A DNA stretch of 64,000 bases from Haloactinopolyspora alba (GTDB lineage: Bacteria; Actinomycetota; Actinomycetes; Jiangellales; Jiangellaceae), in the NCBI RefSeq assembly GCF_003014555.1, contig NZ_PYGE01000013.1:1-64000 (forward strand), read 5' to 3'. This document shows, in pieces, positions 31,299-33,680 of this stretch. A program made the position numbers and the translations under genes. Position 1 is the first letter of the stretch, and each line of letters opens with the position of its first letter. The notes beneath the pieces are model-generated. The model saw only the letters and a program-made list of their open reading frames with translations, had not been told where the DNA came from and made no database searches.

Positions 31299-32594
31299 TC
31301 AGCCGCCGTGCCCGAACGGGGCCAGGGTCGTTCCGTCATCCATCCGCAGCCGGAGCGAACCGACCGCGGCCCCGGCTCGGGCACCCGCGTCCGAGCCGGA
31401 CGCGCCGGTGGTGACGACGTGCCCGAGGCGGCTGTTGTTGTCCACCGGCCGGCCGGCTCGGACCGGGGTCGCCGTCTCCCACCGGTGCACCGCCGGGTCG
31501 GCCGCCAGCCGGTCCGTGCCGTCGACGCGGGTCACCGTCCCCGCGGACGGCGAGACCACGAACGCCACGGCCGCCGCATCAGCTCCGGCGGCGACCGGTG
31601 CGCGCACCGTCCCGACCGTGGGCGCCCGGCCGAGCGCCAGGTCGATCAGCACCTCCAGCGGATGCGTGCCGGTGACCAGCCGGACCAGGTCGAAGATGTA
31701 CCCGCCGGCCTGGCGCGGGTTGATCTCGACGATGCGCGGTCCCTGGCCGGTGAGGCGCACCTCGGTGTGGCTGAGCCCGTGCGTGTAGCCGATCGCCCGC
31801 AGGGCCGCCCGCACGTGCGTCTCGACCGCGGCCCCGGTGTCCGGCGCGAGCGCGGCCGGGAACCGGTGACCGGTCTCGACGAACGCGCGAGCACCGTCGA
31901 CGGCCTTGGCCGTGATGCCGATGACGGTCGTCTCCCCGTCGCGGGTCACCGCCTCCACGCTGACCTCGGGGCCGTCGAGCGGCTGTTCCATCAGCAGCAA
32001 CCGCGCCAGCCGCTGGCCCCGGGTGTTCCGCTCGACCCCGCTGACCTCCCAGAAGGCGTCCTTCAGGGCGGCCTCGTCGGTGACCAGCCGTACCGACGTG
32101 CCGGAGTTCAGGTCCACCGGCTTGGCCACCAGCGGGTAGCCCAGTTCCGCGGCCGCGAGCCGGGCGGCCTCCCACGACGCGGCCGTCCGGTACGCGGGCG
32201 TCGCCAACCCGGCACGCGCGGTACTGGCGCGGACCTCGTCCTTGCGTGCGGCGCGCCGGACGACCTCGGCGTCGACGCCCGGCAGGCCCAGCGTCGACGC
32301 GGCATGCGCGACCGCCTCGAGGTAGTAGTCACAGGTGGACAGCACGCCGTCGACCGTCCGGCGGGCGGCCAGGGCGGTCGCGGCGGCGGCCAGATCCGGC
32401 CGGCCGTTGGTCTCCACCACCACGACCTCGTCTGCGTCACGCACGACCGGGTGCGCCGAGCCGTCTGGCAGGTCGGGGTACAGCGACGGGTCACGGGTGA
32501 ACAGCACGTAGCGGTGTCCCGACTCGCGGATCAGCGGTGGCAGGCTCAACCCGGTGGAGTGCAGCCAGCTCTCGATCATCAGCAACGTCGCCAC
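31299..32594 (-). CDS. ATP-grasp ligase coupled to the nicotianamine synthase-like gene
   Basis: About 431 residues. It has a pre-ATP-grasp domain (LLMIESWLHSTG, VLFTRDPSLYP) and an ATP-grasp core with ELGYPLVAKPVDLNSGTSVRLV (nucleotide Lys), VSVEAVT and the magnesium-binding EINPRQAGGY. The closest style is the carboxylate-amine ligases that join amino acids. GTG 32594 has GGAGG 7 bases upstream; GTG 32600 overlaps the upstream stop as GTGA. The gene directly follows a nicotianamine synthase-like gene, so it may amidate or extend that product. Substrate inferred. Confidence 0.75.
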   Translation of the reverse strand: MATLLMIESWLHSTGLSLPPLIRESGHRYVLFTRDPSLYPDLPDGSAHPVVRDADEVVVVETNGRPDLAAAATALAARRTVDGVLSTCDYYLEAVAHAASTLGLPGVDAEVVRRAARKDEVRASTARAGLATPAYRTAASWEAARLAAAELGYPLVAKPVDLNSGTSVRLVTDEAALKDAFWEVSGVERNTRGQRLARLLLMEQPLDGPEVSVEAVTRDGETTVIGITAKAVDGARAFVETGHRFPAALAPDTGAAVETHVRAALRAIGYTHGLSHTEVRLTGQGPRIVEINPRQAGGYIFDLVRLVTGTHPLEVLIDLALGRAPTVGTVRAPVAAGADAAAVAFVVSPSAGTVTRVDGTDRLAADPAVHRWETATPVRAGRPVDNNSRLGHVVTTGASGSDAGARAGAAVGSLRLRMDDGTTLAPFGHGG

Positions 32595-32596
32595 GG

Positions 32597-33469
32597 TCAC
32601 TCCTCCGATGTGTTCACGCGCGCGAGCACGGCGGAGTTGATCACGTCGTTGACCGGGTGCACGACGGACAGCAGCTCGTAGCCGTCCAGCGCGTCCACGT
32701 CGACCGCGGGGTACAGCACCTGCCGCAGCCCGCGGGCGCTGCGCGCGAGAACAACGGCGCCCGGTTTCGCCGAGCCGGCCATCCGGCGCAGGACGCGGGC
32801 CTTGCCCGCCGCGTCGCCGCCGACCAGTGCGGCCAGGACGACGACGTCGTAGCGCCCGAGGTCGACGTCGGCGGCGTCCGCGCGGACCCGGCCGAGACCA
32901 CCGAAGCCCAGCGCGCCCGCGACACGCGCACCGGCCTCGAGCGCCTCCGGGTCGTGGTCGACGAGGTCGACGGCGACGTCGAGTTCGCCCGCGAGGTGCA
33001 GCGCGCTCAGCGGCAACGGCCCCGCGCCGACGAAGGCCAGCGAACGCACCCGGGAGCCGACGGCCGAGGCCAGCATCCCGATCTCCATCCGGCTGAGCCG
33101 GCGGTAGTTGTCCGCGTACGGGAAGCGTGCCAGCTCGTCCCGCGGTGAACGCGCCGTCGCGATCCGCTCGGACCACGCCCGCTCCAGCTCGCTCTCGCCG
33201 CGCGAGCACAACTCACGCAGTCGCGGGCCGGCGGCGCGGACCGTCTCGTCGTCGAGGACCGCGGGGGCGAGCTCGTGCGGGACGCTCAGCACCAGCCGCA
33301 CCAGACGCCCGAACACGTCGTCGGCGACTTGGCCAGGACGGAGGTCCGGCAACGACTCCAGCTCGCGGTGCAGGGACAGCAGTTCCGTGCGGACGGTGTC
33401 CCTGCGAGCAGCGACGATGTCCGAAGTTGGTCGATTTGACAGAGTTTTGGTAGTGAGACTCATGTTCAT
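32597..33469 (-). CDS. Nicotianamine synthase-like enzyme
   Basis: A 290-residue protein matching nicotianamine synthases: Rossmann segment FVGAGPLPLSALHLA for S-adenosylmethionine, VDLVDHDPEAL, VVVLAALVG, and the C-terminal HPVNDVINSAVLAR. These enzymes transfer aminobutyrate units from SAM to an amine; bacterial relatives make staphylopine-type metallophores. Two starts are possible (33469 and 33463), neither with a ribosome site, so a leaderless or short-leader mRNA is possible. Its stop overlaps the ATP-grasp start region. No opine dehydrogenase or metallophore exporter is adjacent. Confidence 0.8.
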   Translation of the reverse strand: MNMSLTTKTLSNRPTSDIVAARRDTVRTELLSLHRELESLPDLRPGQVADDVFGRLVRLVLSVPHELAPAVLDDETVRAAGPRLRELCSRGESELERAWSERIATARSPRDELARFPYADNYRRLSRMEIGMLASAVGSRVRSLAFVGAGPLPLSALHLAGELDVAVDLVDHDPEALEAGARVAGALGFGGLGRVRADAADVDLGRYDVVVLAALVGGDAAGKARVLRRMAGSAKPGAVVLARSARGLRQVLYPAVDVDALDGYELLSVVHPVNDVINSAVLARVNTSEE

Positions 33470-33680
33470 CAGACGTCATCGTGCCACAGCCGGTCGCGGA
33501 CGGAGGACGGTTCCGCCGAACAGGTCCGCTCGCACCCGGAACGACGACCGAGAACGACGCGCCCGCCGCGTAACCGTGATGAGACGATCGGCGCCGTGCC
33601 GACGCGGACGAGATGTTCGCGCACTGGTTCGACGGAGCCGCGACGGACCCGGCCGCCGGACACACCGCCGACGACTACGC

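Follow-up and report, generated by a model that had tools for sequence, protein, structure and literature searches.

A predicted zinc-regulated gene pair for a nicotianamine synthase and an ATP-grasp ligase in Haloactinopolyspora alba and other Jiangellaceae

The gene pair

The window analysed here is a 64,000-nucleotide stretch of the Haloactinopolyspora alba contig NZ_PYGE01000013.1. Its minus strand carries a nicotianamine synthase (NAS) gene of the PF03059 family (32597-33469, 290 aa), directly followed on the same strand by a gene for an ATP-grasp enzyme belonging to the L-amino acid ligase type (31299-32594, 431 aa). This adjacency was proposed in the original prediction and is borne out by the Pfam assignments, the fold matches of both products and the recurrence of the pair in related genomes (see below). 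The pair is flanked on one side by genes for a PhoD phosphatase and a poorly characterised protein, and on the other by genes for an SRPBCC protein and an ArsR-type regulator.

The two reading frames were first thought to be coupled by a GTGA overlap, with the ligase starting at 32600. A comparison of 19 junctions argues against this start. In the relatives the ligase begins with ATG/GTG-GCN-ACN, in most genomes 1-2 nt past the NAS stop codon, and the corresponding GTG of the window lies 2 nt past that stop. The GTG that overlaps the NAS stop in the window is not conserved, being out of frame in one relative (L056). The ligase is therefore best placed at 31299-32594, with a GTG start assigned by comparison, and the start at 32600 is less likely. 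The coupling of the two genes is tight, yet the overlap itself is probably not real.

Conservation of the pair

When 393 genomes of the class were searched with the PF03059 profile, NAS genes were detected in 22, of which 20 belong to the Jiangellaceae, a family of soil actinobacteria; a search with the NAS protein of the window gave a concordant result. In every one of the 20 near-complete Jiangellaceae genomes, a single NAS gene and a single close homologue of the ligase gene lie side by side on one strand. This adjacency in 20 of 20 genomes exceeds what chance would produce. The two Jiangellaceae genomes that lack the pair are small, with a completeness of 75-81%. The neighbourhood survey that the original prediction called for thus finds the pair conserved.

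Conservation across genera is limited to the NAS and ligase genes. The genes on either side differ from one genus to another, so that a larger operon was rejected, and comparison of the neighbourhoods revealed no transporter genes accompanying the pair in the Jiangellaceae genomes. No opine dehydrogenase of the staphylopine type adjoins NAS. The opine dehydrogenase profile PF10100 found no match in 22 Jiangellaceae genomes, an absence that is not fully secured because the profile matched no control genome either. The ATP-grasp ligase is the sole conserved partner of NAS. Outside the family, three further actinobacteria have a full-length NAS gene; no close homologue of the ligase was found near it in any of them, and one has ABC and MFS transport genes beside NAS. 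Plasmid carriage of NAS was also considered; the sole case was an archaeal plasmid gene, which has no ligase.

Predicted promoter and zinc control

A 15-bp element resembling a Zur box, TGAACATGAGTCTCA, overlaps the first codons of NAS (33454..33468, minus strand). The Zur box published for S. coelicolor reads TGAAAATGATTTTCA (PMC2823685), and the window box agrees with this consensus at 12 of 15 bases, a quality reached by only 13 sites in the H. alba genome. Every near-complete Jiangellaceae genome (20 of 20) has the exact sequence TGAACATGARTCTCA at NAS. Across 19 aligned upstream regions, conservation amounts to 0.98 inside the box as against 0.53-0.66 around it.

Upstream of the operator lies an extended -10-like element, TGTGGCACGAT (33478..33488, minus strand), whose pattern TGTG.CA..AT is conserved in the same number of aligned regions (19). 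We infer that this element serves as the promoter and that transcription starts near the NAS start codon, in which case the operon transcript is likely to be leaderless. In Corynebacterium, according to the literature, some Zur targets are leaderless.

Genome pattern searches with a degenerate motif, TGANNATGNNTCTCA, returned three sites in H. alba. They are situated at the NAS operon, at the only znuA gene and at aztD, a zinc-metallochaperone gene that scores 489 bits against a cut-off of 400. The motif was drawn partly from the sites that it finds. Since it derives in part from H. alba sites, those in other Jiangellaceae genomes constitute independent evidence; there it occurs at a znuA, at an aztD-like gene and at a gene encoding a CobW C-terminal domain, while many further matches fall inside genes or repeats. 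Sites elsewhere in Jiangellaceae that differ from the box by one mismatch were rejected as regulon members, as they lie mostly inside genes or repeats. Taken together, the match to the consensus, the strict conservation of the box and its sharing with znuA and aztD predict that the NAS operon is controlled by Zur and induced by zinc starvation.

Several observations concern the box and its surroundings. The H. alba genome (G000) has two AztD-type zinc chaperone genes (L162:2290-3555 and L163:5797-7074), both with Zur-like boxes, one scoring above the NCBIfam cut-off and one below it. In two genera (L055, L058, L060, L063, L065, L067) the Zur-like box opens a separate leader ORF of 25-52 aa (MNMNLIT...), which overlaps the NAS start in the cases inspected by eye. 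In Jiangella and the genus of the window the same start (MNMSLTT..., 33427-33469 in the window) is fused in frame and forms the disordered N-terminus of NAS. In one Jiangella genome the NAS promoter and leader occur a second time (MNMGLTSNIFGQTGLTDP..., L157, G075:C249:69187-69201); this leader copy stops after about 40 codons and no NAS follows it.

The nicotianamine synthase

The NAS protein scores 181 bits against PF03059, for which the cut-off is 27. Its AlphaFold model (pLDDT 90.7) shows residues 1-14 disordered and a core that begins at about residue 20. Among PDB entries, the archaeal thermonicotianamine synthase MtNAS is the best match both in sequence and in fold, with 28% identity over the aligned part. 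E96 and Y122 of the window protein align with the catalytic E81 and Y107 of MtNAS, the former marked as catalytic by the E81Q variants in the PDB. MtNAS differs in lacking the VGxD insertion and E92.

Plant and fungal NAS build nicotianamine from three molecules of SAM, and the window protein resembles AtNAS1 and NcNAS in its PF03059 domain, its catalytic Glu and Tyr, a C-x3-E-x3-E arrangement and a VGxD-type motif. Mutagenesis of AtNAS1 established that E77, Y106, E73 and 206-VGMD-209 are required; of these, E73 and VGMD are conserved among plant NAS (PMC10248798). All published residue numbers fit the AtNAS1 sequence used for our alignment, to which the window NAS is about 33% identical. The catalytic pair (E96 and Y122; E77 and Y106 in AtNAS1) is invariant in 15 actinobacterial NAS sequences. 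C88, E92 and E96 are spaced as are C69, E73 and E77 of AtNAS1, and E92 is invariant among the relatives. The window protein reads VGGD where AtNAS1 has VGMD and MtNAS is gapped. Among the relatives VG is always present and the final Asp is variable; in the Jiangella proteins this last residue of the plant motif is replaced. Unlike its plant and fungal counterparts, the window NAS has a shorter core without the C-terminal extension and is encoded in an operon with a ligase and a Zur-like box.

The retention of the catalytic Glu and Tyr and of the plant-type motifs suggests that the likely product is true nicotianamine or a close analogue and not a precursor of the CntL type. The enzyme had initially been likened to those of opine operons; its motifs are instead of the plant and fungal nicotianamine type. 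Identity as an azetidine-2-carboxylate synthase (AzeJ/VioH) was considered as well, the context figure of the corresponding paper showing ATP-grasp neighbours. It was rejected, since the protein here belongs to PF03059 and has the MtNAS fold.

The ATP-grasp ligase and its relatives

The ligase combines the Pfam domains ATP-grasp_4 and LAL_C2. Its model (pLDDT 84.8) has as nearest fold the L-amino acid ligase BL00235 (3VOT), and the ATP/Mg residues K120, K160, E205, E280, E292, N294 and R296 (P0002 numbering) are invariant. The ATP-grasp fold, the LAL_C2 domain and the intact ATP/Mg residues place it among the L-amino acid ligases. Domain layout and active-site residues are as in BL00235, BacD and the ATP-grasp half of PRK02186. 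Judged from layout and fold, the enzyme would be a putative amide- or dipeptide-forming ligase. Of the NCBIfam models, PRK02186 (ATP-grasp/argininosuccinate lyase) matches best, through the first 400 positions of that model. Since every NCBIfam score falls far short of its curated cut-off, none of the named substrates can be transferred to the protein.

The nearest relatives outside Jiangellaceae lie in one Streptomyces-like family (f19) and in one other (L113). In the tree these relatives make up a single clade, which joins the Jiangellaceae ligases at moderate support (84/87), and the outgroup branches are long. The Streptomyces-like members (L108-L112), sister to the Jiangellaceae ligases in the tree, are 40-44% identical to the window ligase. 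The ligase genes of f19 and L113 are preceded by Zur-like boxes that depart from the consensus at 2-4 positions, and no IdeR/DtxR box near the consensus was found upstream of the Streptomyces-like ones. The ligase gene comes first in these operons (L108-L113), together with genes for a DUF364 protein (labelled 'putative heavy-metal chelation'), a PLP enzyme assigned as SbnA-like with a score below the cut-off, an MFS protein, a methyltransferase and an SBP_bac_5/ABC importer. By gene content the operon looks like a zinc metallophore cluster, undescribed in the literature found; a partial literature search yielded no description of DUF364 with an ATP-grasp enzyme. Unlike the Jiangellaceae pair, the Streptomyces-like operon includes transport genes and has no NAS, and its backbone would come from an SbnA-like reaction. 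The occurrence of these relatives in chelator-like operons with Zur boxes is the main reason for reading the window ligase as part of chelator synthesis rather than as an incidental neighbour.

About 5 kb of one genome (L114, G101:C12) contains three stretches of related ATP-grasp ligases, one of the matches crossing an in-frame TGA.

Proposed function

The conserved pair without a detectable opine dehydrogenase, the predicted zinc control and the relatives of the ligase make an amide-linked chelator the best reading. We lean, with somewhat better than even confidence, towards a Zur-controlled two-gene operon for a metal chelator in which the ligase builds the nicotianamine-type product into an amide. 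Under zinc shortage, Zur would leave the operator at the operon start and both genes would be transcribed together. NAS would join 2-aminobutyrate units from SAM into nicotianamine or a close analogue. The ligase, with ATP, would then form an acyl phosphate and from it an amide with a second molecule, either by adding an amino acid to the primary amine of nicotianamine or by amidating one of its carboxylates. The metal chelated is most likely zinc. As no transport gene accompanies the pair, the chelator may be used inside the cell.

An amide-linked product in place of an opine was the central suggestion of the original prediction. It is supported in silico as far as the pair, the lack of a PF10100 match and the Zur-box relatives are concerned; for the ligation step, we infer that the enzyme acts on the NAS product.

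The order of the two reactions could be the reverse. The ligase would then act first, and its dipeptide or amide would be the starter for one or two aminobutyrate units added by NAS, with nicotianamine no intermediate. The product would still be an amide-linked metallophore. The solved relatives of the ligase are indeed dipeptide-forming L-amino acid ligases, which fits such a scheme. However, NAS has motifs found in enzymes that make nicotianamine from SAM without any other starter, and it precedes the ligase in gene order (a weak point). We regard this reversed order, taken as a whole, as unlikely.

Quite improbable, in our view, is that the two enzymes have separate functions, with nicotianamine buffering or binding zinc within the cell while the ligase makes an unrelated dipeptide or amide for zinc starvation. 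Although the pair comes without transport genes and there are other actinobacteria in which NAS lacks this partner, a division of this kind sits poorly with the strict adjacency and near-contiguous frames in 20 of 20 genomes, and with the presence of ligase relatives in chelator-like operons.

The comparison with the Cnt systems for staphylopine and pseudopaline bears on the remaining alternative. The window operon shares with them an enzyme of the SAM-dependent aminobutyrate transferase family and a predicted role in zinc metallophore formation. Cnt operons combine CntL with the opine dehydrogenase CntM and transporters, whereas the window operon has a ligase instead and no adjoining transporters. 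An ordinary opine metallophore, with the dehydrogenase encoded elsewhere in the genome and an incidental ligase, is very improbable: CntL does have the same fold as NAS, but it is a weak match in sequence where MtNAS is a strong one, and the opine route finds no PF10100 match in the family (nor, it must be noted, in the control genomes).

Returning to the preferred reading, in which the ligase amide-links the NAS product, a broader version can be formulated. The pair would represent a new class of zinc metallophore, in which a plant-type NAS of bacterial origin supplies nicotianamine and the ligase turns it into aminoacyl- or amidated nicotianamine, and the ligase subfamily would be a shared capping module. 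We put this forward tentatively and hold it to be possible rather than probable. Because the same ligase subfamily would act on an unrelated, SbnA-like backbone in the Streptomyces-like operons, amide capping would, if this is true, be a module shared by the zinc-starvation chelators of actinobacteria.

To our knowledge, the final step in characterised bacterial nicotianamine-like metallophores is carried out by an opine dehydrogenase. Pairing a plant-type NAS and an amide-forming ligase behind a zinc-starvation operator, as this family-wide operon is predicted to do, would give such chelators a further finishing route. Our partial literature search found no description of NAS with an ATP-grasp enzyme, or of nicotianamine with Jiangella, and the two-gene zinc-controlled combination is apparently undescribed. 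The operon would also place a probable maker of true nicotianamine in the actinobacteria; a published NAS tree is rooted with actinobacteria (PMC12454661). Another layout of NAS metallophore genes in this phylum is seen at L068 (G290:C12:174000-193900), where NAS adjoins genes for the ATPases of peptide/nickel-type ABC transporters and for an MFS protein but has no ligase partner.
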